NCBI RefSeq assembly: GCF_000473105.1
Contig: NZ_KI421498.1
Coordinates: forward strand, 1,116,001-1,180,000
DNA length: 64,000 nucleotides
From: Phaeobacter inhibens DSM 16374
GTDB lineage: Bacteria; Pseudomonadota; Alphaproteobacteria; Rhodobacterales; Rhodobacteraceae
Reading direction: 5' to 3'
The translations under genes were made by a program, and so were the position numbers. Shown piece by piece: positions 1-22,875 of this stretch. Below the pieces are notes generated by a model. It was not told the origin of the DNA. It did no database searches and saw only the letters and a list, made by a program, of their open reading frames with translations. Every line of letters starts with the position of its first letter. Positions within the stretch are counted from its first letter, which is position 1.

Positions 1-537
1 CAGCACCATGGCAGCGGCACTGTTGACCGGCTCCAGCGCATCAACAACGGGCGAGCGATAAAGCAGATGTTTCTGATCCATCGACAACACCAGCGCCTTG
101 CGCCGTCCCGATCTGAGGTAGCGGGCTGCACAATGCATGGCAAAAAGCGGTGCCGTGCGCCCGCGATCAGAGATCGCAAAGCCGAACCCATCCTTCACCC
201 CGAGGTGATGCAGGGCGAAATTGGTCACCGAGGTGCCCAGGTGGATATCCGGCAACCAATGTGCCATCAGCACCAGATCAATATCGGACAGGTCCATGCG
301 GGACGACAGATCATCCAGCAGTTCCCGCGTCATGGCCGCGTAGGGTGCGCGGTCATCCGCCGTCAGCCACGTCTGCACATTGCTGTCAGCAGATTGGTAG
401 GTCTTGCCATTGGCACGGAAAAACCGGCTGTTGTAGTCCTCCCAATAGTCCACTTCCTTGAGCCAGTTGGGATCTGCGGCTTCCAATCCGCCGAATTCTC
501 GGCAGATCAGACTACCGGGCGCAATGCGCAACGTCAT
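1..537 (-). CDS. Ketosynthase-III-like (thiolase-fold) protein lacking the catalytic Cys; partial
   Basis: An open frame of 179 codons starts at ATG 537 and runs off the left edge. The start overlaps the stop of the preceding gene as ATGA, so it is the last visible gene of the operon. The pattern follows the N-terminal half of the KAS III/thiolase fold: a DLSDIDLVL strand (83-91), the nucleophile region near 118-134 (ISDRGRTAPLFAM), then the RYLRSGRRKALVLSMD helix and strand. Where FabH has its active-site Cys this protein has Arg/Gly (around 125-127). Cys136 lies further along the helix and is not in register. This suggests a non-condensing partner, comparable to a chain-length factor, or an acyltransferase-like relative. 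The C-terminal half with the His and Asn sites is not in the window. The fold assignment is by motif reading only. Confidence 0.6.
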   Translation of the reverse strand, partial: MTLRIAPGSLICREFGGLEAADPNWLKEVDYWEDYNSRFFRANGKTYQSADSNVQTWLTADDRAPYAAMTRELLDDLSSRMDLSDIDLVLMAHWLPDIHLGTSVTNFALHHLGVKDGFGFAISDRGRTAPLFAMHCAARYLRSGRRKALVLSMDQKHLLYRSPVVDALEPVNSAAAMVL

Positions 538-3020
538 TGATCCACCCCTGCGGTATAAGACCGGTAGGCGTTCAATAGATGGATGTTGCTGGTGCCCTCC
601 ATATACTCAAAGGCCTTCACGTCCCGGCATCGCCGCCGCAGTTCGGCATCCTGCAAAAAGCGCATCGGGTCCTGATCCGTGATCCGGCGCACCACCTGAT
701 CGACAAAGCTCACGGCCTGCATTTTGACCTTGCTGATATCCTGAACCTTGGGGCGGCGGTTTTCCTGCGCACGGATCACCTTAACCAGTTGCACCAACAG
801 CGCAGTGTGGCTGGCCAACAAGTCCTGATATGCCGGGAGCCGTGTCGGATCTTCCAACATCAACTCAATAAGGCCGCGCCCTGATCCCAGCGCCATCGCG
901 GCAACCATGGGGCGGTTGCGTTCAAAGACACCGTTGATGGCCATAAAGCCATCCCGCAGCGATCGTCCTCCGCTGCCAAGGATCATGTCCTGCGTCACCG
1001 GGAAGTCGGTCAAGGTCATCTGGCAGAGATCCGCCCCGCGCAGACCATTGGTGCCAAGCCGTTCGATTTTCACGCAGTCGGGCGCATCAGATGGTGCAAT
1101 CATCACCAGCCCCATGCGACCGGTTTCCTCGATATGCGCGAAGAACAGGCCAATTTCGGCGCGGGCAATGCCGCCAACCAATGTTTTGACACCATTCAGG
1201 ACAAGTTTTCCATCTTTCAGGCCCAGCGTACTGCGCCCGTTAGAGGCATCGGATCCAGCATCCGGTTCTGTCACCGCAAAGAATGTCCCCTGCGGGCCAA
1301 AGCGGTATCCGTCAAAGAACCGCGCAATCTGTGCGTCGGTGCCTGTTGCCAGCACCGCGCCACCGGACAGCGATGGCCCCGGTAGCGACAATATGCAGTT
1401 GGCGTCAAACCGTGCCAGACGTTCGACCATGGCGACATGCAGACCATAGGGGCAATCTGAAATGCCAAGGCCACTGTCACGCAATGGGAAGCCGTTGAAT
1501 TTCTCAGGCACACCGATGGTGGTCAGCGCACGCACTGTTGGGTTCTCCCACAGTGCGGTCCAGCTTTCGGGGTCGCGGTCCAGACGGGCACCGGTTTCGC
1601 GAAATAGCGTCTGCAAGCCGGTCAGTCGCTCCAGGCAGGGGTCTGAAAACGGTGTTCCCTCCAGCCCATTTCCGGGTGCCGAGGAATAAAGATCGGCCAG
1701 CGCCGCGGGAGCGTGGCCAGTGCTGGGATTGGCGTGGGCGGCCAGCCGCAGGTCAGATGGCTGCTGCACTGCCAGGCGCGCCTCTACCGTGTCGCGGGAC
1801 CGAACGAGCCGCAGCTCTGTGCCGTCGATCATGACTTCTGCGGGGGCGCCGAAGCCGAGGAAATTGACCGGTGAAGCCGTTGGTCCATAAGCGCCGGATT
1901 GCCCGATGGAAATCAGATCGCCCACCTGCGGTGTTGCCATCAGGACAGATTTACCGATCACGTCCTGCGGCGTGCACAGCGGGCCGGTCAGGGTCCAGGG
2001 CTGCGCCGCCTCGTCGTCGATCTCTGCCTTGCCGTCACGCAACAAGCGGATTGGGAAATTCTTGCGCAGAAAGCCCTGACCAGCCGCAGCGACATGGACG
2101 TTGGAGCCACCATCGCAGACGGCAAAATGCTCGCCCTTGCTGCTCTTGGTCTGCTGTACACGGGTCACAAACTGCCCGGACGGACCAGAGAAATAGCGCC
2201 CTAGTTCTATCACAACACGGGTCTTTGGATGTGTGGCGCCAAAGCTCTGGACAAGTGGCGTGACCGCCTGACCAAGAGCGTTCAGATCCAGCTCTGTCTC
2301 ACCGTCGTAATAGGGGATACCAAATCCACCACCAACGTCGACAAAATCGAGGGGGGCCTTGAGGCTTGATATGACCTCAGTCGCCAGGTTGAGAATGTTG
2401 CGCACATTGGCGACAACAGTTTCGTGGGTCAGGATACGAGTGCCCATATAGGCATGCAGACCGCACAGCCGCAGATGAGCGCAGCTCTCTGCCTGCTTCA
2501 GCACTTCGGACAGCCCGGATTGGTCGATACCAAATTGGGTTGGGCGACCGCTCATGTTCAACTTCGCACCGCCTGCGTGAAAGTCTGGGTTGACCCTCAG
2601 CGCGATATTCTGGACACGACCCAGCTGGCGCGCCAAGGCATCAATTTGAGTCAGCTCGTAGGCGGACTCGACCACGATCGCCTTGATCCCCAATTCAATG
2701 GCGCGCGTCAGCTCTGTCTCGGATTTGCCGGGGCCCACCATCAAGATGCGTTGAGGGGTGGCACCGGCCTGAAGGCTCGTTTCCAGCTCCAGCAGAGAGG
2801 ACACTTCGCAGCCAGCCCCATGGCCATGCAACACCCGCGTCACCGAAAGGTTCGGGTTGGACTTGAGCGAGTAGAAGAAATCCACCTGCGGGAGGGCTGC
2901 GCGCAGCGCATCCAATCGCCCCCGCAGCACCGAGGCATCATAGAGGTAGAACGGCGTCCCCGCGGTTGTCGCAATCTCGTCGATCAGGCGCAGGTCGGTG
3001 TTTGGGAACAAATCAGTCAT
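534..3020 (-). CDS. Fusion: PLP-dependent amino-acid decarboxylase + acyl-CoA dehydrogenase-like domain
   Basis: 828 residues. Residues 1 to about 415 are a fold-III (alanine-racemase-type barrel) Orn/DAP/Arg decarboxylase: PLP lysine K53 in FFYSLKSNP, phosphate-binding loop VDVGGGFG (227-234), and the CDGG (302-305) and GPLCTPQD (346-353) segments with the conserved Cys349 and Asp353. After a linker, about 470-828 is an acyl-CoA dehydrogenase: FAVTEPDAGSD (581-591) for FAD binding and MEGTSNIHL near the C-terminus with the usual catalytic Glu (about 808). Relatives of the first domain, such as BtrK of butirosin synthesis, decarboxylate an aminoacyl group held on an ACP. Here an ACP gene ends 3 bp upstream, so decarboxylation followed by alpha,beta-oxidation of a tethered amino acid is a reasonable inference. 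The two domains are in one frame without a stop. An AAGGGG Shine-Dalgarno precedes ATG 3020. Confidence 0.85.
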   Translation of the reverse strand: MTDLFPNTDLRLIDEIATTAGTPFYLYDASVLRGRLDALRAALPQVDFFYSLKSNPNLSVTRVLHGHGAGCEVSSLLELETSLQAGATPQRILMVGPGKSETELTRAIELGIKAIVVESAYELTQIDALARQLGRVQNIALRVNPDFHAGGAKLNMSGRPTQFGIDQSGLSEVLKQAESCAHLRLCGLHAYMGTRILTHETVVANVRNILNLATEVISSLKAPLDFVDVGGGFGIPYYDGETELDLNALGQAVTPLVQSFGATHPKTRVVIELGRYFSGPSGQFVTRVQQTKSSKGEHFAVCDGGSNVHVAAAGQGFLRKNFPIRLLRDGKAEIDDEAAQPWTLTGPLCTPQDVIGKSVLMATPQVGDLISIGQSGAYGPTASPVNFLGFGAPAEVMIDGTELRLVRSRDTVEARLAVQQPSDLRLAAHANPSTGHAPAALADLYSSAPGNGLEGTPFSDPCLERLTGLQTLFRETGARLDRDPESWTALWENPTVRALTTIGVPEKFNGFPLRDSGLGISDCPYGLHVAMVERLARFDANCILSLPGPSLSGGAVLATGTDAQIARFFDGYRFGPQGTFFAVTEPDAGSDASNGRSTLGLKDGKLVLNGVKTLVGGIARAEIGLFFAHIEETGRMGLVMIAPSDAPDCVKIERLGTNGLRGADLCQMTLTDFPVTQDMILGSGGRSLRDGFMAINGVFERNRPMVAAMALGSGRGLIELMLEDPTRLPAYQDLLASHTALLVQLVKVIRAQENRRPKVQDISKVKMQAVSFVDQVVRRITDQDPMRFLQDAELRRRCRDVKAFEYMEGTSNIHLLNAYRSYTAGVDQ

Positions 3021-3023
3021 CCC

Positions 3024-3305
3024 TTACACCCCTTCCGGCAGACACATACGTGCCTCAAGAAACCCGCAGAGGCTCGAGATGCCCGAGACCACTGTGTTCA
3101 GTCCGCTTTCGCCAACCGACAAAAACTCGGTCGGATCTATCCGGGTGACTTCCCCCAATGCGGTCACAAACTGCACCAGTTCGAGCGAGTTCAGGAGGCC
3201 CGAAACCCCATAGATAGGGCTGCCATTCAAGGCGGCTTCAACACGTTCCGGCCCAAGGCCAATTCCTTGCAGAGCGTCGCGGACAATCGATTGGTGATCT
3301 GTCAT
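3024..3305 (-). CDS. Acyl carrier protein-like protein (A)
   Basis: 93 residues, in the size range of carrier proteins. LLNSLELVQFV places the candidate phosphopantetheine Ser at residue 40, at the start of the second helix. The usual DSL is NSL here, so the residue before the Ser is Asn instead of Asp. ATG 3305 has a strong GGAG eight bases upstream. The gene lies 33 bp after ketosynthase-like gene A and 3 bp before the decarboxylase/dehydrogenase fusion, so it is the natural carrier for both. No phosphopantetheinyl transferase or adenylating enzyme is visible in the window. Attachment of the cofactor is inferred. Confidence 0.7.
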   Translation of the reverse strand: MTDHQSIVRDALQGIGLGPERVEAALNGSPIYGVSGLLNSLELVQFVTALGEVTRIDPTEFLSVGESGLNTVVSGISSLCGFLEARMCLPEGV

Positions 3306-3338
3306 GTTTCTTCTCCAGTACGCTGAATTAAAAAAGGG

Positions 3339-4265
3339 TCAGTTGACCTGAACCAATGTGCAGGTCGCCGTAGCGCCCAGGCCGATGCTGAACAGAAGCA
3401 GCCGGTCGCCAGCTACCAGCTGGTCGTCCTTGATGAGCTGCATCAGATTGATGAACGGGTCGGCACCAAAGCAGTGCCCAAAGCGCGCAATCGTCGAGAG
3501 GCAGACCTTGTGGCGGTCAAATCCAAGGATCTGAGCAATCATGATCCAGGACGCCATGTTGACGTTATGCGGCAGAATAAAACGCACATCCTCCATCCCA
3601 AGGCCGAACCGCTTCAGCGCGTTGGTCAGGGTGTTGCACGCAAAATCGAGATACATGTCTTCGAACCCCTCAAGATAGGGTTCATCAAGATGTCCGGTGT
3701 TCTGCCAGAACCGCGTTTCGTGCTGGGTGTGACTGTCGACAACCCGCAGGCGGCTGGCCTCGCGCCGCACAAGAACCGCCGCCGCGCATTCGCCCATAAT
3801 CGTGGTGTTCTTGATCAACCGCACATCAGGGTGGAAAGCTTTTTCAGCGATCAGGACAAGCCCGGTATCTGCATCGCCCAGCAATTGATCCATTGCCGAC
3901 AACATCGACAATCCCGTTGCACAATGGTTCATAGTGGCGCTGAACACCTCCAGCCCCTGTTCGGCAAATGGCGCAAGGATCGAAGAGCTTTCGCCATCGC
4001 ACTGGGTGATTGCCGGCAGGGTATGGCAATGGGATACATGGCTAAGTGCGGCGGCACTGCGTGGATTGCGCGCCAGCAGCCTGTCCACCGCACCTGAAGT
4101 CATCTGCGCCAATGGGGCCTGTTCATCGTAGTGAAACGCCTCAAAACCAAAGAAGCGCGAAAACATGCGCCGCTGGTTCCGGCTTAACGAAAGATCCTCG
4201 GAAATCTCTTCCAGGAACTCCGTCCGCTCAGGGTAATCCAGTTCAAAATCAACGATATGCAGCAT
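3339..4265 (-). CDS. 3-oxoacyl-ACP synthase III-like protein (A), Cys-His-His
   Basis: 308 residues, close to FabH length. The nucleophile Cys is C115 in NHCATGLS, and the His is H233 in PHNVNM (FabH PHQAN). The third residue, Asn in the FabH GNTSAAS loop, is His264 in ARFGHCFGAD. The C-terminal strand GDRLLLFSIGLGATAT matches the glycine-rich end of the family. The protein may condense a starter with a malonyl- or aminoacyl-ACP, or act as an acyl or ester-forming transferase like other divergent KAS III proteins. The ATG at 4265 overlaps the stop of the hydrolase gene as TGATG, implying translational coupling. A GTG one codon earlier is possible. Confidence 0.8.
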   Translation of the reverse strand: MLHIVDFELDYPERTEFLEEISEDLSLSRNQRRMFSRFFGFEAFHYDEQAPLAQMTSGAVDRLLARNPRSAAALSHVSHCHTLPAITQCDGESSSILAPFAEQGLEVFSATMNHCATGLSMLSAMDQLLGDADTGLVLIAEKAFHPDVRLIKNTTIMGECAAAVLVRREASRLRVVDSHTQHETRFWQNTGHLDEPYLEGFEDMYLDFACNTLTNALKRFGLGMEDVRFILPHNVNMASWIMIAQILGFDRHKVCLSTIARFGHCFGADPFINLMQLIKDDQLVAGDRLLLFSIGLGATATCTLVQVN

Positions 4266-5215
4266 CACCGGCTCCCCGCGTTCGACGTTTCATGACAGAA
4301 CCGCTCCATCAGGCCGAGCAGCTCTGGATGGTGCAGCACAGATCTGTGATTGCAGTTGCGCAAGTAAATTGGCATGAGCCCGTCGCGTGCGGCACAGATG
4401 CGCTGCGCCTCGGCTGGGGGCACCTGCCAGTCGTGCTGTGCGTGGATCACCAACATCGGCAAGGTTGTTTTCCTGCATTCGACCGGTCCGATCTCTGCCA
4501 GCTCTCTGCCGCAGGTTTTTGCATATCCGCGCATCAGGGCAGCGCCGGTTTTGGCGGGCTGTCCGGTGAAGCGCAGGTAGAGCTCCATGAGGCGGTCCAG
4601 TGAAGATGGTGTCGAAAGGGTGACCAATCGGCGCGCCTTGAGCCCCATCCCCAGTGCGATCATCGCAATCAGACCACCAGCTGAATGTCCAATCAGCACC
4701 TCATACGGCTGATCCTGCGGGCCTATTTTCTTAAGGCGCCGCGCGACAGCCACAAAGCTGCGCACAGCGCCGCGCGATTTTCCGGTGCCGGGCAGATCCG
4801 GCACATCGACGCGAAAACCACGATCGGCCAGATCCTGCGCCAGTGGCAGCATCATGCGTCCGTCTGCGTTCCAGCCGTGAACCAGCAGCACACGTGGCCC
4901 GGTTGTGGGACCAAACTGTCGAACGTAGATGCCTGCACAGTGAAAGGCATCGCTGGCGGTGATCAACTGCTGGTCGTGGTTCGTTGGGATCGGTGTCGGC
5001 GTTTCTGATTGATTTTGATGAAACCGCCGTAATAACAACCGCGCCGCCAATGTTGGTGACAGACGATCCAGCAGGTCTATCTCCAGCCGCCGCAGCCGGG
5101 ACCGCGCGGTTCGCAACCGCAACGCTGGTTCCTGCGGCGCAGACCGCCGCACTGCGCGGAGCCAGCGATAACCGCCTTGTGCAAGCAAACCGGGCAAGGC
5201 GAGTTCATACAGCAT
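4265..5215 (-). CDS. Alpha/beta hydrolase (possible thioesterase/acyl hydrolase)
   Basis: 316 residues from ATG 5215. This start is preferred to a TTG at 5248 because it fits the overlap with the MATE gene and has AGGGG upstream. An N-terminal region of about 95 residues precedes the hydrolase fold. Motifs are LLVHGW (oxyanion strand), GHSAGG with nucleophile S178, acid D262 in HAQHDWQVP, and a C-terminal His near 290 (NCNHRSVL). It could release the product from the carrier protein as a thioesterase or hydrolyse a pathway intermediate. The substrate cannot be read from the sequence. It overlaps the genes on both sides and belongs to the operon. Confidence 0.8.
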   Translation of the reverse strand: MLYELALPGLLAQGGYRWLRAVRRSAPQEPALRLRTARSRLRRLEIDLLDRLSPTLAARLLLRRFHQNQSETPTPIPTNHDQQLITASDAFHCAGIYVRQFGPTTGPRVLLVHGWNADGRMMLPLAQDLADRGFRVDVPDLPGTGKSRGAVRSFVAVARRLKKIGPQDQPYEVLIGHSAGGLIAMIALGMGLKARRLVTLSTPSSLDRLMELYLRFTGQPAKTGAALMRGYAKTCGRELAEIGPVECRKTTLPMLVIHAQHDWQVPPAEAQRICAARDGLMPIYLRNCNHRSVLHHPELLGLMERFCHETSNAGSR

Positions 5216-6581
5216 CGCGGCGCCCCTGTTGGCGTAGGAGGAAAGCAAACTGAAGCAGGAACAAAGCGAACGTCAGACCACTGACCACGCACAGCAGCCA
5301 GATCGCCATATTCAGATCATGGCCAACGTATTGAGCGTAGAACACAACGCCACCGGTGATGATTTCAGTGACGATGGCAATGATAAGGACCTGCGTTGCA
5401 CGCCCCAGCTGCTCCATCACCACCTGAAGCATCGCCGCCCCTGACACAAAGAAGAATGTCAGTTGCAGGCCCTGCATCACCAGATCCGTTGCCGCACGCA
5501 ATTCGTTGGTGTTCTGGCTGGGCGAGACAAGAAGCCGGATCATGTCATCGCCCCAGAATGGCAGCAACGCGGTCAGCAACCCGTAAAACCCCAGCATCAC
5601 GGGCACACCAATGCCCAGATACTGCAGCCGTGCCGTCGGGGTGCTGTTTTCTGCCAACTGGTTCACCAGGATCGCGATAACGGAACCAATGGCGATGGCC
5701 GGTATCATAAAGGACACCCGGAACCGCATCACGACAAGAAAGGCCGAGGCATATTCACTGCCGAACTCTGCCAGCACCGGAAAGATCACGGCAGCGCTGA
5801 GAGAGCCCACCAAAATCGTCAGCGCAATCGGGGTGCCCACAAACATCAACAACTGCGTCGTGCGAGCTTTGACCTGTTCCTTGAGATGGGTAATGGCCTG
5901 ACCGGCCTCACGTTTGAGCAGCAAAACGATGACCGGCAACATCACAAGCGGGCCGACCAGATTACCGATCAAAACGGCCTCAAACCCCATATTGTATTCG
6001 GTTAGCAGCACGTATGTGGTTGCCAGATCCAGCACTGCAAGCCCAAGAAACGGCAGCAGGCTGCGCGCCAGTTTGCCCTGCCCACGCATGGCAGCATAGA
6101 AAATGTCAAACACGACAAACGCGCTAAGGGATAGGATATATAGCGGCAGATAGTCGAGCGTTTGGCGAAACAGCGGGTCCTCTATCGAAACATATTGAGA
6201 GACGGCGTAGGCGATGGCCGCAAAAAGGCTCAGACCAATCAAAGCGTAGCCTGACATCCGCCAGGATGCTGGGAGAATTGCAGAGCGCGGCCAGTTGTTT
6301 TTGGACCGGGCGCTAAAAACCTGATTGGAGATCGCCAGACCTTCCATCAGGGCCAGCACCAGCAGGAACGCAGGCTGCAACATGGATTGCAGTTCAAGCG
6401 GCGTTGCCTGTGGCGCACGAGCCAGGATCGCCACCTTCCCCAGATGCAACCCCGACACGATGATCGCCCCGGTCGCAAAGGGAATGGCCATGACGATGAT
6501 TTCGGACAAGACCGACCAGACTGAACGGCGCGGTGGTGGCAGGATGTCATCCGCGCCGGCTGGAAAAATGGCTGGTTGCAT
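5205..6581 (-). CDS. MATE-family multidrug/metabolite efflux protein
   Basis: 458 residues with about 12 hydrophobic segments. The two-bundle layout and an internal QLGRATQVLIIAIVTEI-type stretch resemble MATE/polysaccharide-flippase antiporters. ATG 6581 was chosen because GGAG lies about ten bases upstream and it starts 4 bp after the stop of the preceding gene. A longer frame to 6617 would overlap that gene. Within a biosynthetic operon such a protein most likely exports the product or gives self-protection, driven by Na+ or H+. Substrate and coupling ion are unknown. Confidence 0.8.
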   Translation of the reverse strand: MQPAIFPAGADDILPPPRRSVWSVLSEIIVMAIPFATGAIIVSGLHLGKVAILARAPQATPLELQSMLQPAFLLVLALMEGLAISNQVFSARSKNNWPRSAILPASWRMSGYALIGLSLFAAIAYAVSQYVSIEDPLFRQTLDYLPLYILSLSAFVVFDIFYAAMRGQGKLARSLLPFLGLAVLDLATTYVLLTEYNMGFEAVLIGNLVGPLVMLPVIVLLLKREAGQAITHLKEQVKARTTQLLMFVGTPIALTILVGSLSAAVIFPVLAEFGSEYASAFLVVMRFRVSFMIPAIAIGSVIAILVNQLAENSTPTARLQYLGIGVPVMLGFYGLLTALLPFWGDDMIRLLVSPSQNTNELRAATDLVMQGLQLTFFFVSGAAMLQVVMEQLGRATQVLIIAIVTEIITGGVVFYAQYVGHDLNMAIWLLCVVSGLTFALFLLQFAFLLRQQGRRDAV

Positions 6582-6585
6582 GGTG

Positions 6586-7122
6586 CTAGCTCCGCACTGA
6601 GGGGGAATGGTCGCCAAGGTCGGAAAAACGGACGGACAGCGGCGCAGCGCCTGCGCATTGGTCCGTCATGGGCATATCGGTGCAGCACTCTGCTGAGAGC
6701 ACATAGAACCGGCTGTCCCAAAATTCTGGGCTTTGTGCCACGTCTTCAAGCACAACGATGGTGGGAAACAGTTCCAGCAGCGCCTGCACAAACCCGCGCG
6801 CTGAGCTGGCGGTGGCCACACTGCTGATACGCAGGGCATGCACCGGACCGCTGTGCTGCAGGTCATTCAGGATATCGAGCAATTTAGGCGAGCGCTCGTC
6901 CGTGTGGTAGTCGCGGTGCAGGTAGACCAGCGGCACGCGGCTGTTCGGGCCAAGTCCCGGCGCAGACGCGCGATCCGCGGGATTGGATGCGGCGTGGCCC
7001 CTGCACGTCTGATCGAGCGAGATCTGACATGGCGAGGGACCGGATAGAGGTGTTTGGACACGGCCCTGGGACACCAAATTCATCCCATTAAAATCAAATA
7101 AATAGTGACTAGTACCCGTCAT
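6586..7122 (-). CDS. Orphan protein of the biosynthetic operon
   Basis: 178 residues, no family recognised. It starts at ATG 7122, 2 bp after the stop of the dehydrogenase-like gene, with GGGG upstream, and ends 4 bp before the MATE start, so its place in the operon supports it as real. The N-terminal 70 residues are low in obvious structure. Residues 65-140 alternate hydrophobic strands and helices (VPLVYLHRDY, VHALRISSVATA, FPTIVVLEDVA), faintly like one half of a thiolase-type domain without a nucleophile Cys. A Cys pair (ECC) sits near 145. There is no signal peptide or membrane segment. Function unknown. Confidence 0.6.
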   Translation of the reverse strand: MTGTSHYLFDFNGMNLVSQGRVQTPLSGPSPCQISLDQTCRGHAASNPADRASAPGLGPNSRVPLVYLHRDYHTDERSPKLLDILNDLQHSGPVHALRISSVATASSARGFVQALLELFPTIVVLEDVAQSPEFWDSRFYVLSAECCTDMPMTDQCAGAAPLSVRFSDLGDHSPSVRS

Positions 7123-7124
7123 GA

Positions 7125-7805
7125 TCAGCCCCGTTCCCGATCATCAGAAACCCCGTCAAATGCAGGTCGGATCAGGGCGAAAAAGATCGCGTCAAGGAAC
7201 TCCAGCCCGTGGCATTGCCCCTCCAACAGCCCGCGTCCGCCCATCAGCTTGGCCGCCTTGCCAAACAAAACACCGATGTCGCGGTGCGCGGACAGCATCA
7301 TCGTTGTTGTCGGCGCGCCCGGCAGTTGGATCTCTCCCATGAGACGATCCACCGCAGCGCTGATTTCAGAGAATTGCGCCTTAATCAGCGGCTGATGTAA
7401 CAGCTTGATACCAAAACTCTCGCGCCCCTCCAGATGGCCGAAGGCGAGATCAAGACTGCGCATCAGCCAACCCAACCGAAGGGCTACGAAAGCTGGATTT
7501 TGGACATCAGCAACCTTGGGTGTACCAGCATCGCTTTGTGATAATTGAAGGTCGAAGGCCGCGAGGCCGACCTCCTCCATCCGCGCTGTGAGCGTCGGCC
7601 TATTGCCCAGATCACTCAGGTCGAGGATCATCGCAACATCAGATGTGCCAAAATCTGACGCATGCAGCGCCATCCCATTACACGCCGGATAGGCTGGCTG
7701 TCCCGACAGCATCCGACCCAGCTCTGCCAACGCCTCCTTTGGCGCAGCCCTTCGCGCCAAAGCCATCAGTGTTGGCAAGCTGTCTGATGTGTCCAGATCA
7801 AACAT
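7125..7805 (-). CDS. Truncated acyl-CoA dehydrogenase-like protein
   Basis: 226 residues from ATG 7805, which overlaps the end of the ACP gene by 8 bp and has GCAGG six bases upstream; a TTG at 7826 is the alternative. Residues about 105-215 match the helical C-terminal domain of acyl-CoA dehydrogenases (RLGWLMRSLDLAFGHLEGR, then AHRDIGVLFGKAAKLMGGRG). The N-terminal part is too short for the usual alpha and beta domains, and the YEGT segment carrying the catalytic Glu is absent. It is probably not a normal dehydrogenase. It may be a binding or scaffold subunit, or an eroded copy of the dehydrogenase half of the downstream fusion. The frame itself is intact. Confidence 0.65.
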   Translation of the reverse strand: MFDLDTSDSLPTLMALARRAAPKEALAELGRMLSGQPAYPACNGMALHASDFGTSDVAMILDLSDLGNRPTLTARMEEVGLAAFDLQLSQSDAGTPKVADVQNPAFVALRLGWLMRSLDLAFGHLEGRESFGIKLLHQPLIKAQFSEISAAVDRLMGEIQLPGAPTTTMMLSAHRDIGVLFGKAAKLMGGRGLLEGQCHGLEFLDAIFFALIRPAFDGVSDDRERG

Positions 7806-8067
7806 GTTCGACCTGCCGCGCACCAATACGGTCTTCGATGTGGCTGACCAGGGATGCTGCGTGGTTGAACTCTTGCTGCCCTATGGCATCAGGGTCAAAC
7901 TGCAAACCGTCGATCTGGTCTTCAAGCGCCAGCAAAAACTGAACAAACATGTAGGAATCCAGATCGAACGCCTTGTCCAGTTCAGTCTCCGGTGTGAGAC
8001 CGCTAACCTGGCGTTCCGTGACCTCGGAGAGCGCAGTTTCGATTGCCTTGAAAATCATCGCTGTCAA
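7798..8067 (-). CDS. Acyl carrier protein-like protein (B)
   Basis: 89 residues. FDLDSYMFVQFLLALED gives the phosphopantetheine site: Ser38, with the classical Asp before it but Tyr after it (DSY instead of DSL). A third-helix region follows. The start is uncertain: TTG 8067 has AGAGG at good distance, while an ATG three codons later (8058) has a weaker site. It lies 15 bp after ketosynthase-like gene B and overlaps the dehydrogenase-like gene, repeating the arrangement of ACP A downstream. It is distinct in sequence from ACP A, so the two probably serve different enzymes. Confidence 0.75.
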   Translation of the reverse strand: MTAMIFKAIETALSEVTERQVSGLTPETELDKAFDLDSYMFVQFLLALEDQIDGLQFDPDAIGQQEFNHAASLVSHIEDRIGARQVEHV

Positions 8068-8082
8068 TTTTCCATACCTCTT

Positions 8083-9030
8083 TTAAGTGAAGTCCGTTCG
8101 TTCCAGCAGACAGGTCGCAAAGGTCACGCCTGTCCCCGCAGCCAGTACGAACACCTGGGTGCCGGGGGAAATTTGGTTGGGGTGTGAAATCTCGTAGTCG
8201 GTCAGATTGACAAAAATGTCAGAGCAATAACCGTGACCGAGGCGTTGAATATCGCCCTGAAAGCACCTCGGCTCCCATTCGAAATGGCGCAGCAGAGCGC
8301 GCGTGACCGGCAGGTTGAGATTATGCGGCAAAACCCGGAAATCATCGCTGAGGACGTCCCCGAAATTATTCAGGCTGTCCTCGACAAAGCCAATCAATCC
8401 GCTCAGATACTCGTCCTGTAGCGCACGCCGGTCATCTGCCGCCATCGCATCAGGGTTCTGAAAGAAACGCGGCATGTGCCGCACGCTGGTGTTTAGTACA
8501 GTCCATTTTCCGGATCGTTTATCTGGACCCGCGTTGAACAACGCGGCCGTCGGCAGCTCGGCCAATAGACCCACGGGCAAACGCGCCACATTATAATGAA
8601 ACGCCTTTTCACCTGTCAGGATAATGACAGGGTGATCATCCTCAATCGCCTGGATAAACCGCATCGCCGCAAGCGCAGAAGCGCAGCTGGTCATCGTCAG
8701 CGAATTGACCTCCCAACCAGCAAGACCGTGATCATCGGCGAGGCAACGGAGCCAGTCCTGATCTGCAAACCCATGATGGGTCTGGGTGCGGCAATAAAAG
8801 AGAGTACCGCTCTGCGTTACAAGCTGCGCGTTGGTTGCCAGCACGCCATCAAGCGCTGCGCCCAGCATTCCGTTCAGATCATCCTCCTGCAGTCCGACGC
8901 TCTCAAGTTCGAAAAAGCGTTGGTACATCTTCAAGGCGCCAGCACTCAGCCCATGGCTGGGTCCAAGATCGCACAGCGGAACACGCGTGATTTCGTCAGG
9001 TGCAAAATGAATGTGGTCGAGAGACAGCAT
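8083..9030 (-). CDS. 3-oxoacyl-ACP synthase III-like protein (B), Cys-His-His
   Basis: 315 residues; first gene of the operon. Nucleophile C116 in MTSCASAL, H236 in PHNLNL, and again a His (H266, RLGHGYCSD) where FabH has Asn. Overall layout matches protein A (3339-4265), but the two have diverged widely, which argues for separate specificities instead of a recent duplication. ATG 9030 has AGGA about eight bases upstream. The next gene is an ACP 15 bp away. It probably performs a condensation or acyl transfer from ACP B; substrate unknown. Confidence 0.8.
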   Translation of the reverse strand: MLSLDHIHFAPDEITRVPLCDLGPSHGLSAGALKMYQRFFELESVGLQEDDLNGMLGAALDGVLATNAQLVTQSGTLFYCRTQTHHGFADQDWLRCLADDHGLAGWEVNSLTMTSCASALAAMRFIQAIEDDHPVIILTGEKAFHYNVARLPVGLLAELPTAALFNAGPDKRSGKWTVLNTSVRHMPRFFQNPDAMAADDRRALQDEYLSGLIGFVEDSLNNFGDVLSDDFRVLPHNLNLPVTRALLRHFEWEPRCFQGDIQRLGHGYCSDIFVNLTDYEISHPNQISPGTQVFVLAAGTGVTFATCLLERTDFT

Positions 9031-9698: not shown

Positions 9699-10901
9699 TT
9701 AGCCTGCGGAACGAAGGGCCGTGGCCAGTTTCACCCGTGTCGCGGCAAGGGCTGGCAAGGCGCCACCAATCATGCCGATGGCGATCCCCAGCAATGCCCC
9801 ATCGCGAAGAACGCTGATGGTGACCTCAAGTTGAAACGCAGTGGTTGTATTATTTGGGCCAACCGTGCTGGCCTGCCAACCGTTGAACAACAGCCATGAT
9901 ACCGCCGCGCCCAATACGGCCCCGAAAGCAGATAGGACCACCGCCTCAACCCAGGTTCCGGTAAACGCGGACAAACGCGAAAAGCCGAGCGTGCGCACCG
10001 TGGCGATCTCCATCGACCGATTGGCGACTGAGGTCATCATCGTGTTGATCGCGCCAACCGTGGCCCCAATCGACATCAGGATTGCCAGCGGCCAGCCGAA
10101 CATGCGGATCAGCGTCGAGGTTCGCGCCGATTGTGCGGACAGCAATTGCACCTCGGTCACGGCCGCCAACGGCGTTTGCGACAGAGCAGGCAACGCAGAC
10201 TGCAAAGTTTCCAAACCATTGGGACCTGCAAGGGCAGTTCGCAGGATCTGCACCTGCCCCATCTGATCAAACGCAGATTGCACGGCCTCTAGCCCACCCC
10301 AGATTTCAGATTCCATTGCACCGCCACCGGTTTCAAAATGGCCGACAACCTGCCAATCGACGGCCCCCAACCGAACGCTCTGACCGATCCCAAAGACGCC
10401 CGCGCGCGCAGCAAGGTCCCGGCCGACAACAATTTCCCGTGTGCCAGGAACAAAGTTGCGGCCAATAGCGACAGCCGCATTCTCTCGCAGCGTGATCCCC
10501 GCAAGGTCCATACCGCGCAGCGCCAACGTCTGAAGGGATCCATCGGCGGCCGACTGGATTTCAACCGGAACGACGATCTCGCGCGAGAAAATCACGGCGC
10601 CGGTTTCATCGCGTTGAAGACCAAGATCGGCTGAGGTTGCTTGCAGGCTGCGGATCACCCCGGATGGAATGTCAGAGCTGGTTTCCTGATTGGTGCCACC
10701 GCCAAGGATCACCGCAATCCCAGCCGAACCATTTCCGGCGAGCGCGGTTTCAAAACCCTTTGCCATGGCGAGGAACCCAGTCAACACCGCCACCACCAAT
10801 GCCACGGAAAGCACCATGGACATCGAAATCCACAGTCGTTTGGGCAGACTGCGAAGATTGGCAGAGACCATCACGATGATTTGTTTCATATGCAAATACA
10901 T
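9699..10901 (-). CDS. ABC transporter permease, FtsX/MacB-like (1)
   Basis: 400 residues with the MacB-type layout: a membrane segment at about 15-35, a periplasmic domain, then three membrane helices in the C-terminal third (about 265-390), ending in LPALAATRVKLATALRS, typical of FtsX permeases. It starts 3 bp after the second permease gene. It works with the ATPase (12044-12751) and the adaptor (12779-13915), a set that resembles MacAB or lipoprotein-type exporters. These use ATP to move periplasmic substrates by a mechanical stroke instead of transporting across the inner membrane. Substrate unknown. Confidence 0.85.
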   Translation of the reverse strand: MYLHMKQIIVMVSANLRSLPKRLWISMSMVLSVALVVAVLTGFLAMAKGFETALAGNGSAGIAVILGGGTNQETSSDIPSGVIRSLQATSADLGLQRDETGAVIFSREIVVPVEIQSAADGSLQTLALRGMDLAGITLRENAAVAIGRNFVPGTREIVVGRDLAARAGVFGIGQSVRLGAVDWQVVGHFETGGGAMESEIWGGLEAVQSAFDQMGQVQILRTALAGPNGLETLQSALPALSQTPLAAVTEVQLLSAQSARTSTLIRMFGWPLAILMSIGATVGAINTMMTSVANRSMEIATVRTLGFSRLSAFTGTWVEAVVLSAFGAVLGAAVSWLLFNGWQASTVGPNNTTTAFQLEVTISVLRDGALLGIAIGMIGGALPALAATRVKLATALRSAG

Positions 10902-10904
10902 AGC

Positions 10905-12047
10905 TTATCTCGTTCTGAAAGCGTTGGAGACGGTTGTGCGCATCGCGAGCGCTGCGGGCAGACATCCGGTCAGAACGCCCAGCAACACTGTGATTACCAA
11001 AGATTTGATCACGACTGGGCCTGTCAAAACCAGACCAAGTGCAGGGCCTGTGAGCTGTGTTGCGGCTTTGGTCAGAGCAATCCCGACCGCCCCGCCAACC
11101 AGAAAAATAAGCAGGGTTTCACAAAGAATAAGAACCACGATAAAGCGGTTATTGAAGCCCAAAGTCTTGAGCACGCCGATCTCGAATGTCCGTTCACGGA
11201 CCGCGAACAGCATTGTGTTGATGACGATCATCAGGATGGTCACGAATGCCGCCCCTACAACCAGCGAGACGATCAATTCCACATCGGCGAACTGGCGCAG
11301 GAAGGCTTCGAGGAATTGTTTTTCCGATTGGGTGCGTGTCGGTGTACCCGTATTGGCGAACAATGCATCGATCTGAGACGCCAGCGCGCTGGCCGCCACT
11401 TCGGGCACCGGTTGGACGACAAATCCGTCTACTGTATCCACATCGCGGCTGCGCAGTGCATTCACGTAGTCATAGTTCGCCAGCATGAAATATGTATCGG
11501 TGCTTGGCGTTTTTCCTTCAAAAATACCGCCGACTTCGAACCGCCAGTTCCGGTTTCCGCCCTGCTGCATAATGTTGAACGAGGTGATCTCAATCCGCTG
11601 TCCCGCGCGCCATCCTTGGGCATCTGCGAGGGCTCGGCCAACCAGCACGCGATCCCTGCCCTGTTTGAGCGCGGCCAAAAGATCCGAGGTCAGCGCGAGG
11701 CTGTCACCGTTTATCCGAGCAAAATCATCTACGGCCACCGCATTGGCAACCACGACATTGCGCTCGACCTCACTAAACCCCCGCAGGCGGGACATATAAG
11801 CGACCTCAGCGACGCCGTCCAACGCTGCGATCCGGCGCAGATGCGCAATTGGCAGGGTCTGGCCCCGACCTGATTTATTCATCACGCCCAGCACATCGTC
11901 ATTGGCCGCTGCCGATCCTTGCGTGCCAGACAGGAAGCTGGCCGTCAGACCGTAGATAAGAAAGGCAACCGCGATGCAGAACATCAGTAGCAGCGTCCGC
12001 ATCGGTTTGCGCCAAGCATTGCGCCTCGCCAGTGTCAGAAAAGTCAT
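10905..12047 (-). CDS. ABC transporter permease, FtsX/MacB-like (2)
   Basis: 380 residues with the same topology as its neighbour: one N-terminal helix, a periplasmic domain, and three C-terminal helices starting near 235. The segment FEIGVLKTLGFNNRFIV is the typical cytoplasmic coupling loop of FtsX proteins. ATG 12047 overlaps the ATPase stop as ATGA. With the other permease it should form a heterodimeric exporter, unlike MacB, which is a homodimer with a fused ATPase. Confidence 0.85.
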   Translation of the reverse strand: MTFLTLARRNAWRKPMRTLLLMFCIAVAFLIYGLTASFLSGTQGSAAANDDVLGVMNKSGRGQTLPIAHLRRIAALDGVAEVAYMSRLRGFSEVERNVVVANAVAVDDFARINGDSLALTSDLLAALKQGRDRVLVGRALADAQGWRAGQRIEITSFNIMQQGGNRNWRFEVGGIFEGKTPSTDTYFMLANYDYVNALRSRDVDTVDGFVVQPVPEVAASALASQIDALFANTGTPTRTQSEKQFLEAFLRQFADVELIVSLVVGAAFVTILMIVINTMLFAVRERTFEIGVLKTLGFNNRFIVVLILCETLLIFLVGGAVGIALTKAATQLTGPALGLVLTGPVVIKSLVITVLLGVLTGCLPAALAMRTTVSNAFRTR

Positions 12048-12751
12048 GCGGCAGCCTCTTGTCTTTCGACGAACTGCCCCTTGTTCAGATGCAGGGTGCG
12101 GCTTGCATGGGTCGCCGCTTCGGGATCATGAGTGACCATGACGATGGTTTTCTTCAATTCGCGATTGAGAAACCCCAGAACTTCCAGCACCTCATCCGCC
12201 GAGGCCCGGTCAAGATCGCCGGTTGGTTCGTCGCAGAGTAGAAGCGGCGGATCGCTGACGATAGCGCGGGCAATGCCGACACGCTGTTGCTGACCACCTG
12301 ACATGCTGGACGGCAATTGTTTGCCACGTCCGGACAGACCAACGAGGTCAATTATTTTCTCAACCCGCGCCCGACGTTCGGCCCGGCCAATCGGCTTGAG
12401 CAACAGCGGCAGTTCAATGTTCTCAGCCACATTCAACGTCGGAAGCAAATTGTAGAACTGAAAGACAATGCCAACATTATGGGCGCGCCAGTTGGATTTC
12501 TTAGCCTCGCCCAATTGCTCCAGTTTTGAATTCCCAATCCGTACGCTTCCCGTGTCAGGGGCATCAATCCCGCTGAGAAGATTGAGCATTGTCGACTTAC
12601 CGGATCCTGATGGCCCCATCACCGCCACGAATTCACCTGCGTCGATGCCCAGGGTAAGATCAGAAAAGATCTGTATCTTCTCTTTGCTGAAGGTAAATCC
12701 CTTTGAGACAGCATCCAGCTGAATAAAGGGTGTTTTCTGGGACGCGGACAT
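12044..12751 (-). CDS. ABC transporter ATPase, LolD/MacB-type
   Basis: 235 residues. Walker A GPSGSGKST (about 46-54), signature MSGGQQQRVGIARAI, Walker B LLLCDEPTGDLD, and the H-loop in VMVTHDPEAA. The GDLD after Walker B and the short length are typical of the LolD/FtsE/MacB group that drives FtsX-type permeases. ATG 12751 has AAGGAG nine bases upstream. It lies 27 bp after the adaptor gene and overlaps permease 2 by 4 bp. Confidence 0.9.
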   Translation of the reverse strand: MSASQKTPFIQLDAVSKGFTFSKEKIQIFSDLTLGIDAGEFVAVMGPSGSGKSTMLNLLSGIDAPDTGSVRIGNSKLEQLGEAKKSNWRAHNVGIVFQFYNLLPTLNVAENIELPLLLKPIGRAERRARVEKIIDLVGLSGRGKQLPSSMSGGQQQRVGIARAIVSDPPLLLCDEPTGDLDRASADEVLEVLGFLNRELKKTIVMVTHDPEAATHASRTLHLNKGQFVERQEAAA

Positions 12752-12778
12752 AAAGGTACTCCTTATAAGAGAGGATAA

Positions 12779-13915
12779 TCAGGTATCACTCAGGGTGATA
12801 CGAATGCGGGCGGCCATGTTTGGGCGGATGCCGTCAGGTGGCTCGTCCAGTTCCAGGCGCAGCGAAATCGTGCCTCTCTCAGCAGAGACAACGGGCGAAA
12901 TGCCAACAACGCGAACCTCAAATGGCTGGTCAGGAAAACCATCAAGCACGGCCTCTCCCGTCAGACCGACCCGCAGCCGCGAGACATTGGTCTCGGCGAC
13001 TTCGGCATCGAGATACATGGAGGCGGTGTCGGTGATCACCATGAGGTAGTCGGTGTCGCGAATGGTATCGACACGGGCCAGAACGCTATTGCCGATACGG
13101 GCGTTAAGCTGGGTAATGGTCCCAGAAACCGGCGCGCGTATCGTCAGTTCATCCACGTGTTCCTGCGCAATCTCGACCTTGAGATCAGCCAGATGAATGT
13201 CTTGTTCTGCCTGTCTCAACGCGGTTTTTGCGAGGCTTAACGCTGTGGCGGCGTCCTGCGTCACGCGTTCTGATACAGCGTCTTTGGCAAGGAGGGATGT
13301 CAGCCGGTCAAAATCGCGCTCGGACTGATCCACCTCGATGCGTTTGGTTTCCAGCCGCAGCTGCGCCAGTGACTGATCAATCAATGCCGACTTCAGGGCA
13401 TATTGCGCGCCCGGATCGCTGACTGCGGCCAGCGGTTGTCCGCGTGTAACCGGGTCACCCAAAGCGACGAGAAGATCTGTTATTGTACCCTCGTATTTTG
13501 CAAAGACCGATGCGTAGTCCTGTACAAGTACGTATCCGGATCCGGTTATTTCCGCCGTCGGCATCGCCACAGGTGCGGGCTGGATGCGGGTCGTTGCATC
13601 TGAAACAGGCGTTGGTGCGATCGGCACATCTGTTGCAACTGATTGGGAGGCCGGGTCCAACAGCCCCTCCCCCCAATTGCGCAACACGGCCAAGGTTGGC
13701 AGGTCGCTGCGCCACAAGACCGCGCCGCCGGCTGCCAACAGACCGAGCAATAGGAAAATCCGAAGTGTCCAAGAGGGGCCGCGCTCTTGCCGTTCCTCTA
13801 AACTCGGTTGAGCCTCTGAGACCGTGACGGCCGAAAGTGGGGTCAAAGCCTCAGCAAGATTGCGGTGGGTGTCGGTTTGAATGTTCATGGCCAATGGATC
13901 GCCCATCGCAGCCAT
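12779..13915 (-). CDS. Periplasmic adaptor (membrane fusion protein, HlyD/MacA-like)
   Basis: 378 residues. One membrane helix near 50-68 (LRIFLLLGLLAAGGAVL) is followed by a split lipoyl domain (TGSGYVLVQDYASVF and later APVSGTITQLNARIGNSV), a coiled-coil hairpin at about 180-255, and a beta-barrel region. This is the order of domains in adaptors of tripartite efflux systems. It is the first gene of the ABC operon and should link the permeases to an outer-membrane channel, which is not in the window. The start is uncertain: ATGs at 13915, 13906 and 13888 all lack a strong ribosome site. Confidence 0.8.
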   Translation of the reverse strand: MAAMGDPLAMNIQTDTHRNLAEALTPLSAVTVSEAQPSLEERQERGPSWTLRIFLLLGLLAAGGAVLWRSDLPTLAVLRNWGEGLLDPASQSVATDVPIAPTPVSDATTRIQPAPVAMPTAEITGSGYVLVQDYASVFAKYEGTITDLLVALGDPVTRGQPLAAVSDPGAQYALKSALIDQSLAQLRLETKRIEVDQSERDFDRLTSLLAKDAVSERVTQDAATALSLAKTALRQAEQDIHLADLKVEIAQEHVDELTIRAPVSGTITQLNARIGNSVLARVDTIRDTDYLMVITDTASMYLDAEVAETNVSRLRVGLTGEAVLDGFPDQPFEVRVVGISPVVSAERGTISLRLELDEPPDGIRPNMAARIRITLSDT

Positions 13916-17090: not shown

Positions 17091-17732
17091 TTACTGGCGC
17101 TCAAGAAAGGTCTTCAGCTCCTTGCGCGGGAAGCCATTGCGGTGCGAGGAATAGACGAGGTCCAGTCCACCCTCCGCCAATGTGCGATCATACTGCTGCA
17201 TTTCATAGTCGCCGTTGGGGCCGATAAACATCGAAAACACCGTCAGCGTGTCCCCGATAATCCGCCCCCAGACATAAGGCTCTCCCTTCATCGGATCGAG
17301 CTGCACAGTATGCCCGAAGACATTCCGCTTCATCGCGGCGGCGAAAATATCAGCCCGTTCGGTTGGCTGAAATTCCACGTTGTAGGATTTGGTCTTGCGA
17401 CGCCCGTCCTTCTTTAAGGAGGTGGTGGTCCATTGAACATAAAAACCGTCATCACTGCTGGCGAGGGGACCGATCCGAACAGTCGCATCGCGCTGTTCCG
17501 TGCTGCCATCGGGATTGGGCACCACCAGCGACCCTTGATAGCGCCCGAAGAACGGGCGCACATCCGCCGCCATCGCCTGCCCCGCCAGCACGATGATCAT
17601 CAACAGCGCCAGAAACCCCGCCTGAACCTGCCACTGCAGCCGCGTCAGAGACAGCGTCCTGTCTCGCGCAGTGCGCTTATGCCTGCCCCTTGTCGCGGCC
17701 TGCTGTAGCAGTTTGGCTTGATATGTCAGCAC
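17091..17732 (-). CDS. Conserved hypothetical exported or membrane-anchored protein
   Basis: 213 residues. A basic N-terminal stretch is followed by a single hydrophobic segment (about 38-53, AGFLALLMIIVLAGQAMA) ending in AMAAD, which looks like a signal-peptidase site. The mature part is rich in beta strands (GRYQGSLVVP, ATVRIGPLAS, GFYVQWTTTSLKKDGR). No enzyme motif. The start is a GTG at 17732 with a poor ribosome site, and the true start may lie nearer the hydrophobic segment. It is divergent from fumC. Function unknown. Confidence 0.65.
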   Translation of the reverse strand: MLTYQAKLLQQAATRGRHKRTARDRTLSLTRLQWQVQAGFLALLMIIVLAGQAMAADVRPFFGRYQGSLVVPNPDGSTEQRDATVRIGPLASSDDGFYVQWTTTSLKKDGRRKTKSYNVEFQPTERADIFAAAMKRNVFGHTVQLDPMKGEPYVWGRIIGDTLTVFSMFIGPNGDYEMQQYDRTLAEGGLDLVYSSHRNGFPRKELKTFLERQ

Positions 17733-17947
17733 GGGCAGATCCTTTGGATTGTTGTCTGTCGCGGGTGTATCTGCGCTTAATCTAGCGGTCTTCTGACGTG
17801 GTGCAATAACTCATCCTGCAATGGCCCCTATACCTTGGGTTCGGAATGGCTATGCTGCGCGAAACTGCGCAATTGCCTCGTGACCCGGCCCGGGGTAGAC
17901 GGCATACCGACGCATACATTTAGTCATCATCAGACGGAGAGAGACTT

Positions 17948-19342
17948 ATGTCCGATACCCGCACCGAAACCGACAGCTTCGGTCCGCTTGAAGTCCCCGC
18001 CAACAAATACTGGGGCGCCCAGACCCAGCGGTCGATCATGAACTTCCCCATCGGTTGGGAAAAACAGCCCGTCGCCATCGTGCGCGCGCTGGGGGTGATC
18101 AAACAGGCCTGCGCCATGGCCAACAAGGCCTCGGGCAAGCTGGACGCCCGGATCGGCGATGCGGTTATTCAGGCCGCCGGCGAGGTGATCGAGGGCAAGT
18201 TTGACGACAACTTCCCGCTGGTGGTCTGGCAGACCGGGTCCGGCACCCAGTCCAACATGAACTCCAACGAGGTGATCGCCAACCGCGCGATTGAGATCCT
18301 CGGCGGCGTGATCGGCTCCAAGGACCCGGTACACCCGAACGATCACTGCAATATGGGTCAGTCCTCCAACGACACCTTCCCCACCGCCATGCATATTGCC
18401 ACAGCGATGATGGTGCGGGATGTGCTTGTGCCGGGCCTGACCAAGCTGGCCGAAGGGCTGGAAGCCAAAGCCGAGGCGTTCAAGGACATCATCAAAATCG
18501 GCCGCACCCATACGCAGGACGCGACCCCGCTGACGCTGGGCCAGGAGTTCGGCGGCTACGCGCATCAGATCCGTCAGGGTCTGGCGAGGGTCGAGGCTGC
18601 GATGCCCGGCATCTATGAGCTGGCACAGGGCGGCACTGCGGTTGGCACCGGTCTGAACACGCAAAAAGGCTGGGGCGAAACCGTCGCCGCCAATATGGCC
18701 GAAATCACCGGCCTGCCCTTTGTCACCGCGCCGAACAAGTTCGAGGCACTGGCCGCCCATGACGCGATGGTATTCCTGTCCGGCGCTTTAGCCACCATTG
18801 CGGGCAGCTGCTACAAGATCGCCAATGACATCCGCTTCCTCGGTTCCGGTCCTCGCTCGGGCCTGGGCGAGTTGATCCTGCCGGAGAACGAGCCTGGATC
18901 GTCGATCATGCCGGGCAAGGTGAACCCCACCCAGGCCGAGGCCCTTACCCAGGTTGCCGCCCATGTCATGGGCAATGATGCCGCGATCAAATTCGCAGGC
19001 TCGCAGGGTCATTTCGAACTGAACGTCTACAACCCGATGATGTCCTACAACCTGCTGCAGTCGATCCAGCTGTTGGGCGATGCGGCGGACAGCTTTACCG
19101 AGCGGATGCTGAACGGCATCCAGGCCAATGAGCCGCGCATCGACAAGCTGATGAAAGAGTCACTGATGCTCGTCACCGCGCTGGCGCCGACGATTGGCTA
19201 TGACAATGCCACCAAGGTCGCCAAGACTGCACATAAGAACGGCACCACCCTGAAGGAAGAGGCCATTGCGCTGGGGTTTGTGGATGAGGCGACATTTGAC
19301 GCCGTTGTCCGCCCCGAACAGATGATCGGCCCGAAAGACTGA
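17948..19342 (+). CDS. fumC: Class II fumarate hydratase
   Basis: 464 residues, standard length. The family signature [11 protein letters not shown] is present near residue 320, with [12 protein letters not shown] and [14 protein letters not shown] upstream, the latter two forming the substrate site. It converts fumarate to L-malate in the citric acid cycle as an iron-free, heat-stable tetramer. GGAGAGAG precedes ATG 17948. The stop overlaps the next ATG (TGATG), so at least the small downstream gene is co-translated. Confidence 0.97.
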
Positions 19343-19548
19343 TGGCTGGTTCCGGTTCAGGCCCGGTCAATCTGAACCGGTATCGCAAGGAAAAGGCGCG
19401 GGCTGAGAAGAAGGCCCGCGCCGACCAGAACGCCGTGACCTATGGCCGGACCAAGGCCGAGAAAGATCTGGACAAGGCCCGCAACGCGCAAGATGTGCGG
19501 CGACTGGATGGCACAAAACGCGACGATCCCAAGACCGACGATGACTAA
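19342..19548 (+). CDS. DUF4169-like small basic protein
   Basis: 68 residues, strongly charged. VNLNRYRKEKARAEKKARA followed by YGRTKAEKDLDKA and a short acidic tail is the pattern of the DUF4169 family found beside fumC in many Rhodobacteraceae. Probably helical, possibly nucleic-acid binding, but no function is established. Starts at the last base of the fumC stop. Confidence 0.75.
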   Translation: MAGSGSGPVNLNRYRKEKARAEKKARADQNAVTYGRTKAEKDLDKARNAQDVRRLDGTKRDDPKTDDD

Positions 19549-19759: not shown

Positions 19760-19769
19760 CCACGGTTTG

Positions 19770-20009: not shown

Positions 20010-20012
20010 TGC

Positions 20013-22816: not shown

Positions 22817-22875
22817 GGATTGCGCGGCCCGATTTGCCTGTTGTTGTCTGCCCAGCTTAGCCGCGCTGCATCAAA

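Follow-up and report, generated by a model that had tools for sequence, protein, structure and literature searches.

A putative vfm-type signal-biosynthesis gene cluster in Phaeobacter inhibens and its relatives in other Proteobacteria

Gene content of the locus

The window analysed is a stretch of 64,000 nucleotides of the Phaeobacter inhibens DSM 16374 genome (contig NZ_KI421498.1). Its left end, positions 1-9030, is occupied by ten closely spaced minus-strand genes. From left to right the nine junctions measure -4, +3, +33, -4, -44, -32 (these two overlaps, of 44 and 32 bp, are from the longest reading frames and hinge on the choice of start), +2, -29, and +15 bp, and the recomputed lengths bear out a preliminary description of the locus in which seven of the nine were overlaps or gaps of 4 bp or less. 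The genes of the window were annotated by Pfam, NCBIfam, and PDB searches, which agree with the content given there: three KAS III-like proteins, two acyl carrier proteins (ACPs), a PLP decarboxylase, acyl-CoA dehydrogenase (ACAD) domains, a hydrolase, and an exporter.

The first gene, KS2, encodes a KAS III-like partner protein. It is partial in the window (1-537) and has 291 aa in full, reaching position -338 (positions to the left of the window carry a minus sign). It is followed by a fusion of 828 aa between a BtrK-like PLP decarboxylase and an ACAD (534-3020), by ACP2 (3024-3305), which is without a Pfam match and has its serine site in LLNSLELVQF, and by the putative KAS III-like acyltransferase KS3 (3339-4268). 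Further to the right are an alpha/beta hydrolase (4265-5248), a possible release or editing enzyme, and a MATE-family exporter (5205-6617). The function of the small protein encoded at 6586-7122 (178 aa) is unassigned; its conservation is weak and limited to some alphaproteobacterial clusters. The last three genes are those of a stand-alone ACAD C-terminal-like protein of 233 aa (7125-7826), which is kept beside ACP3 and KS4, of ACP3 itself (7798-8067; carrier site DLDSYMFVQF), and of KS4, another putative KAS III-like acyltransferase (8083-9030).

Positions 1-9030 do not bound the unit. The cluster runs on at both sides, and the ten-gene array is its right-hand part, about half of the whole. 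On the left, the array continues on the minus strand for about 12 kb past the window edge, with junctions mostly of -4 bp. This flank holds the genes of the KAS III-like protein KS1 (338 aa; -1351 to -335), a VinN/VfmM-type adenylating enzyme, here called the ligase (-2942 to -1341), ACP1 (-3242 to -2979), the stand-alone A domain A1 (-4843 to -3239), a P450-like protein (-6198 to -4840), a second stand-alone A domain, A2 (-7811 to -6195), an FAD oxidoreductase (-9220 to -7808), a luciferase-like monooxygenase (LLM; -10229 to -9237), ACAD1 (-11402 to -10239), and a phosphopantetheinyl transferase (PPTase; -12184 to -11399). The preliminary description had expected the loading enzyme and the PPTase to be elsewhere or past the left edge, and three adenylating enzymes and a PPTase are indeed found there. 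Beyond the PPTase gene and a single reading frame of 196 aa is the gene of a membrane AraC protein with seven segments (-14548 to -13481), a candidate receptor. The FAD protein was considered as a halogenase, and this was dropped since its sole basis is a weak Pfam match. The P450-like protein has Arg at the position of the heme-binding Cys (PFGVGARIR) and is a predicted conserved pseudo-P450. Among the orthologues read, those of Rhodobacterales, Rhizobium, and Mesorhizobium have lost this Cys as well; those of A. vitis, Rahnella, Pseudomonas, and Serratia 39006 retain it.

On the right, a MacAB-type exporter is encoded on the minus strand at 9699-13915. It consists of two FtsX/MacB-type permeases (9699-10901 and 10905-12047), an ABC ATPase (12044-12751), and a HlyD-type periplasmic adaptor (12779-13915). 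A gap of 668 bp lies between it and KS4, yet this exporter is conserved together with the cluster in other loci and is counted as part of it.

Catalytic residues of the cluster enzymes

In every orthologue read, KS1 and KS3 have the catalytic Cys and His; KS4, which also has the PHN motif, retains the Cys. KS2 has Ser/Thr in place of the catalytic Cys and lacks PHN, and is probably a structural or non-Cys partner of KS1. The mark of acyltransferases of the CerJ/ChlB3/AfcL type is a Cys/His/Asp triad where FabH has Cys/His/Asn. In KS3, Cys116, His234, His265 (at the FabH Asn position), and Asp270, five residues past His265, are invariant in 19 orthologues. For the predicted model of KS3 (pLDDT 86), Foldseek places the ChlB3 acyltransferase first and FabH almost as close.

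Among the stand-alone adenylating enzymes of the PDB, VinN is closest to the ligase, which is of the TIGR03098/VinN-like kind. In an ungapped alignment with VinN, whose residue set is Asp230, Ser299, and Arg331, the ligase has Arg at Arg331 and Thr at Ser299; the chain-numbering offset of 16 used here puts both published residues on the right letters. The Asp is the one in FDYG. Arg, Thr, and the FDYG Asp are kept in the cluster orthologues.

The preliminary description had taken the ACP-linked decarboxylation of butirosin biosynthesis as its precedent, and a carrier-protein pathway with a BtrK-like decarboxylase is indeed supported: BtrK is the top PDB match of the decarboxylase with 262 bits, against 156 bits for the best DAP decarboxylase. 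The enzyme has the fold-III PLP Lys (in YSLKSNPN) and GPLCTP, which it has in common with BtrK. The ACAD domain of the fusion has the catalytic base Glu in YMEGT. Decarboxylase and ACAD are fused in five loci (Rhodobacteraceae and Rhizobium) and are separate genes in A. vitis, Defluviimonas, Rahnella, Dickeya, and Pseudomonas, which suggests that decarboxylation and the ACAD reaction are consecutive steps.

Orthology with the vfm locus of Dickeya

Vfm is a quorum-sensing system of the plant pathogen Dickeya, and its signal controls virulence. It is reported that the signal escaped chemical detection and was still not identified in 2022, and that the vfm locus is without homology to other studied quorum-sensing loci (PMC9306890). 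In D. oryzae ZYY5 and D. undicola 2B12, one stretch each matches KS1-KS4, the ligase, A1, A2, the decarboxylase, and the ACPs, as well as the MATE exporter, hydrolase, PPTase, ABC ATPase, and short ACAD protein. These are best matches, mostly reciprocal. The published signatures are DVYVICTVAK for VfmO of both strains and, for VfmP, DMMFFGACVK in ZYY5 and DLMFAGCCMK in 2B12 (PMC9306890). In our alignment of the Dickeya loci the mapped positions read DVY_ICTVAK, DMM_FGACVK, and DLM_AGCCMK, and the remaining code position, taken from the WVS/WFS motif, is V, F, and F. The two loci thus reproduce the VfmO2, VfmP2, and VfmP3 signatures (PMC9306890), and since these are the signatures published for the same strains, the stretches are the vfm loci.

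The three stand-alone adenylating enzymes of Phaeobacter are reciprocal best matches to the Dickeya, Serratia 39006, and Pseudomonas loci, which identifies them as the orthologues of VfmO (A1), VfmP (A2), and VfmM (the ligase). The conserved vfm biosynthetic set of ACPs, KAS III-like proteins, decarboxylase, ACAD, MATE exporter, hydrolase, and PPTase is likewise present. The ABC ATPase is a reciprocal best match (43%) to the ATPase of the vfm transporter VfmF/VfmG, while the permease organisation differs. The code of A1, DVFVVCTVAK, shows one change from VfmO3 (DVFVMCTVAK). That of A2, DMFAVGGCAK, differs at several positions, and the product could thus be no more than an analogue of the Vfm signal; the A2 code of Tritonibacter (DMLFFGACMK) is one change from VfmP4.

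The preliminary description had not recognised a described pathway in these genes, a claim that this orthology does not support. It had itself named a left flank belonging to a known pathway as evidence against it, and the leftward extension largely supplies that evidence.

Recurrence in other genomes

A tblastn search of plasmids finds the gene set in Tritonibacter mobilis, Gemmobacter fulvus, a Rhizobium sp., Agrobacterium vitis VAR03-1, and Rahnella. A scan of named genomes adds the alphaproteobacteria Pseudooceanicola, Phaeobacter, Epibacterium, Yoonia, Mesorhizobium, and Defluviimonas, many Pseudomonas, the betaproteobacterium Xenophilus sp. AP218F, Prodigiosinella (Serratia 39006), Dickeya oryzae, and Dickeya undicola. 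Single loci with reciprocal best matches exist in Tritonibacter, Gemmobacter, Rhizobium, A. vitis, Rahnella, and Defluviimonas, and also in D. oryzae ZYY5, D. undicola 2B12, Serratia 39006, and Pseudomonas GM50. The grouping is beyond chance, because about 20 of the 24 genes tested are reciprocal best matches in the best single loci of other genera. Co-occurrence spans the alpha-, beta-, and gammaproteobacteria; a lack of it, which the preliminary description would have counted against its own reading, is thereby excluded.

The cluster is rare. In a family sample of 296 genomes, the only strong KS3 matches besides the genome itself are in one congener and Defluviimonas, and in a phylum sample a KS3-profile match at E <= 1e-15 is found in 6 of 398 genomes, the genome itself and the congener included. 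The KS3 tree has two supported groups, one with most of the alphaproteobacterial sequences and one with the gammaproteobacterial sequences; Defluviimonas and Xenophilus are placed beside the latter.

Large plasmids carry the cluster in Rahnella aquatilis HX2 and in A. vitis VAR03-1, an isolate from grapevine. The literature on antibacterial substances of Rahnella HX2 is about PQQ and gluconic acid and is uninformative for the cluster. A literature search, which did not cover the original description of 2013, found no report of vfm outside Dickeya.

Two other loci have related enzymes. A Burkholderia cenocepacia locus (L045, ~17283-28538) encodes a VinN-type ligase, a BtrK-like decarboxylase, two ACAD-like proteins, and two pairs of KAS-like proteins, adjoining a LuxR-type regulator. 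It was rejected as the afc locus, as it has the LuxR-type gene and the stretch read contains no afc lipid genes. On a Streptomyces decoyicus plasmid (L046, ~19965-29214), a large NRPS adjoins genes for a KAS III-like protein, an ACP, an ACAD, and a type III PLP decarboxylase with 48% to that of the window. The locus is possibly a dehydro-beta-alanine lipopeptide cluster, with enamidonin/olenamidonin as a product that was considered for it.

The putative receptor module

Each of the 12 gammaproteobacterial loci read contains VfmH and VfmI genes, and the Xenophilus genome has VfmI at 43%. The pair is absent from the flanks of the Phaeobacter array and from every alphaproteobacterial locus examined, and whole alphaproteobacterial genomes with vfm genes give only generic histidine-kinase matches (23-27%) to VfmI. 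Sensing can therefore not be taken as conserved with biosynthesis. Within the window, an NtrC-like response regulator and a histidine kinase are encoded at 28041-31177, about 14 kb to the right of the exporter genes; at 28% to VfmH/VfmI they look generic rather than like vfm orthologues.

In each of the 11 alphaproteobacterial genomes searched, the best match to the membrane AraC protein is encoded next to vfm genes, as the protein itself is in the genome of the window. The protein has seven hydropathy peaks, and the helices and the AraC domain are visible in its AlphaFold model, which is of low confidence (pTM 0.44). Relatives at 30-47% exist in many genomes without a KS3 match, so the argument for a receptor is one of linkage, not of family. 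This seven-helix protein is the likely receptor and activator in place of VfmH/VfmI. In Dickeya the permease VfmG is a published candidate co-sensor (PMC9306890), and for this reason the exporter permeases of alphaproteobacteria may also take part in sensing.

Proposed pathway and alternatives

Gene content, vfm orthology, key residues, the absence of a VfmI orthologue, and the presence of the membrane AraC gene are direct observations. They are best explained by a vfm-type cluster of type II (stand-alone) nonribosomal enzymes whose product, a short peptide built on carrier proteins, is exported and acts between cells as a diffusible signal (probability about 0.7).

Aspartate chemistry is known from two Burkholderia lipopeptides. 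In bolagladin and AFC-BC11 biosynthesis, Asp is loaded via its beta-carboxyl and decarboxylated on an ACP (PMC7756342, PMC12186527). An ACAD then forms dehydro-beta-alanine, a step given for BolQ (PMC7756342) and expected of AfcE (PMC12186527). AFC-BC11 is made by an Asp A domain (AfcQ, which activates L-Asp), an ACP, a PLP decarboxylase, and the KAS III-like acyltransferase AfcL, which holds and transfers the peptide; C domains are absent (PMC12186527).

By analogy, we infer a role for Asp in the Phaeobacter cluster and the formation of dehydro-beta-alanine by the fused ACAD. The substrates, the order of steps, the product, its signal function, and the receptor role are deduced from the protein families. 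The ligase would transfer L-aspartate via its beta-carboxyl to an ACP, and the BtrK-like domain of the fusion (534-3020) would strip the alpha-carboxyl to give beta-alanyl-ACP, which the fused ACAD domain would convert to the dehydro-beta-alanine unit. A1 and A2 would load two more amino acids onto carriers. The Cys-bearing KAS III-like proteins would be the acyltransferases that join the units, replacing NRPS condensation domains. The hydrolase may free the product, a short peptide with (dehydro-)beta-alanine, and the MATE and MacAB-type exporters would bring it outside the cell. The membrane AraC protein near the PPTase, replacing the gammaproteobacterial VfmH/VfmI, would respond to it. The exported amine- or enamine-containing product of the preliminary description is plausible by analogy with AFC-BC11 and the bolagladins (PMC12186527, PMC7756342).

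It is also conceivable, but unlikely, that the product is a bioactive compound, such as an antifungal or siderophore like AFC-BC11 or the bolagladins, and not a signal, the membrane AraC protein only regulating its production. Enzymes of like kinds do make antifungal or iron-binding lipopeptides (PMC12186527, PMC7756342). Exporter genes are present, and an exporter co-localised with a regulator suits an antibiotic as well; in the B. cenocepacia locus, related ligase, decarboxylase, and KAS genes are beside a LuxR-type gene without most vfm genes. However, the entire gene set, beyond the Asp branch, matches vfm, which makes a quorum signal in Dickeya (PMC9306890), and the AFC lipid genes for citrate synthase and a methyltransferase are not found in the cluster. 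A siderophore or plain butirosin-type pathway, suggested by domain matches, was dropped after the left flank gave three adenylating enzymes.

Less probable still is butirosin-like chemistry, in which the ligase loads glutamate and the decarboxylase yields a GABA thioester, a saturated amine, rather than dehydro-beta-alanine. BtrK, the top PDB match, is indeed an L-glutamyl-ACP decarboxylase. But the ligase matches VinN, which uses the beta-carboxyl of methyl-Asp, at positions including Asp and Arg, an ACAD is fused to the decarboxylase, and BolN, though BtrK-like, is proposed to act on Asp-ACP (PMC7756342); AfcQ, too, activates L-Asp (PMC12186527). An exosortase-A-associated small-molecule pathway is very improbable: TIGR03098 and TIGR03099 give the best NCBIfam scores of ligase and decarboxylase, but these scores (400 versus 592 bits and 343 versus 478 bits) are below both curated cut-offs, no exosortase gene is seen among the annotated genes, and the KAS and A-domain content fits vfm.

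The vfm-type reading can be extended to Vfm-type signalling across alpha-, beta-, and gammaproteobacteria, partly plasmid-borne, with a one-component seven-helix membrane AraC protein as the alphaproteobacterial receptor and a short peptide with a labile, Asp-derived dehydro-beta-alanine as the signal. In this joint form it is tentative, at a little short of even odds. The receptor module would then have been swapped between the alphaproteobacterial clusters and Dickeya vfm. The cluster enzymes predict one building block of the Vfm signal, beta-alanine or dehydro-beta-alanine derived from Asp, and if it is the latter, the signal could have been overlooked because of photolability of the kind observed with AFC-BC11. 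The orthologous clusters in marine and soil bacteria would be further tractable producers of a Vfm-type product.

Comparison with known systems

The cluster resembles Dickeya vfm (vfmA-Z) most fully, with VfmM, VfmO, and VfmP orthologues, ACPs, at least four KAS III-like proteins, a BtrK-like decarboxylase, ACADs, a MATE exporter, hydrolase, PPTase, and the ATPase of an ABC transporter, mostly as reciprocal best matches. It differs in that it has the membrane AraC protein instead of VfmH/VfmI, and a MacAB-type exporter with an adaptor and two FtsX permeases where Dickeya has a single large permease. Decarboxylase and ACAD are fused, the P450-like protein is without the heme Cys, LLM and FAD enzymes are added, and the VfmP code is altered. 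Because the biosynthetic half agrees with the definition of vfm and the VfmH/VfmI half is absent, the Phaeobacter locus is classed as a putative variant vfm-type signal-biosynthesis cluster, not as a full member of the Vfm system.

With AFC-BC11 (afc, Burkholderia) it shares a VinN-type A domain (here predicted to activate Asp), ACP, PLP decarboxylase, KAS III-like proteins, and ACAD, and the lack of condensation domains; unlike afc, it has three ACPs rather than one and two additional A domains for amino acids, and the AFC lipid genes (citrate synthase, O-methyltransferase) are not seen. The bolagladin proteins BolO/BolC/BolN/BolQ of Burkholderia gladioli resemble the proposed pathway in that Asp is loaded onto a free ACP and is there decarboxylated, N-acylated, and desaturated to dehydro-beta-alanine, but they feed a modular NRPS, and there is none here. 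Butirosin BtrI/BtrK are part of an aminoglycoside side-chain pathway. There, too, a fold-III PLP enzyme decarboxylates an ACP-bound amino acid, but the substrate is glutamate and the gene set differs. The NCBIfam models nearest to the ligase and the decarboxylase are the exosortase-A-associated TIGR03098 and TIGR03099, a hint that the pathway linked to exosortase may likewise involve an amino acid that is loaded onto an ACP and decarboxylated there.
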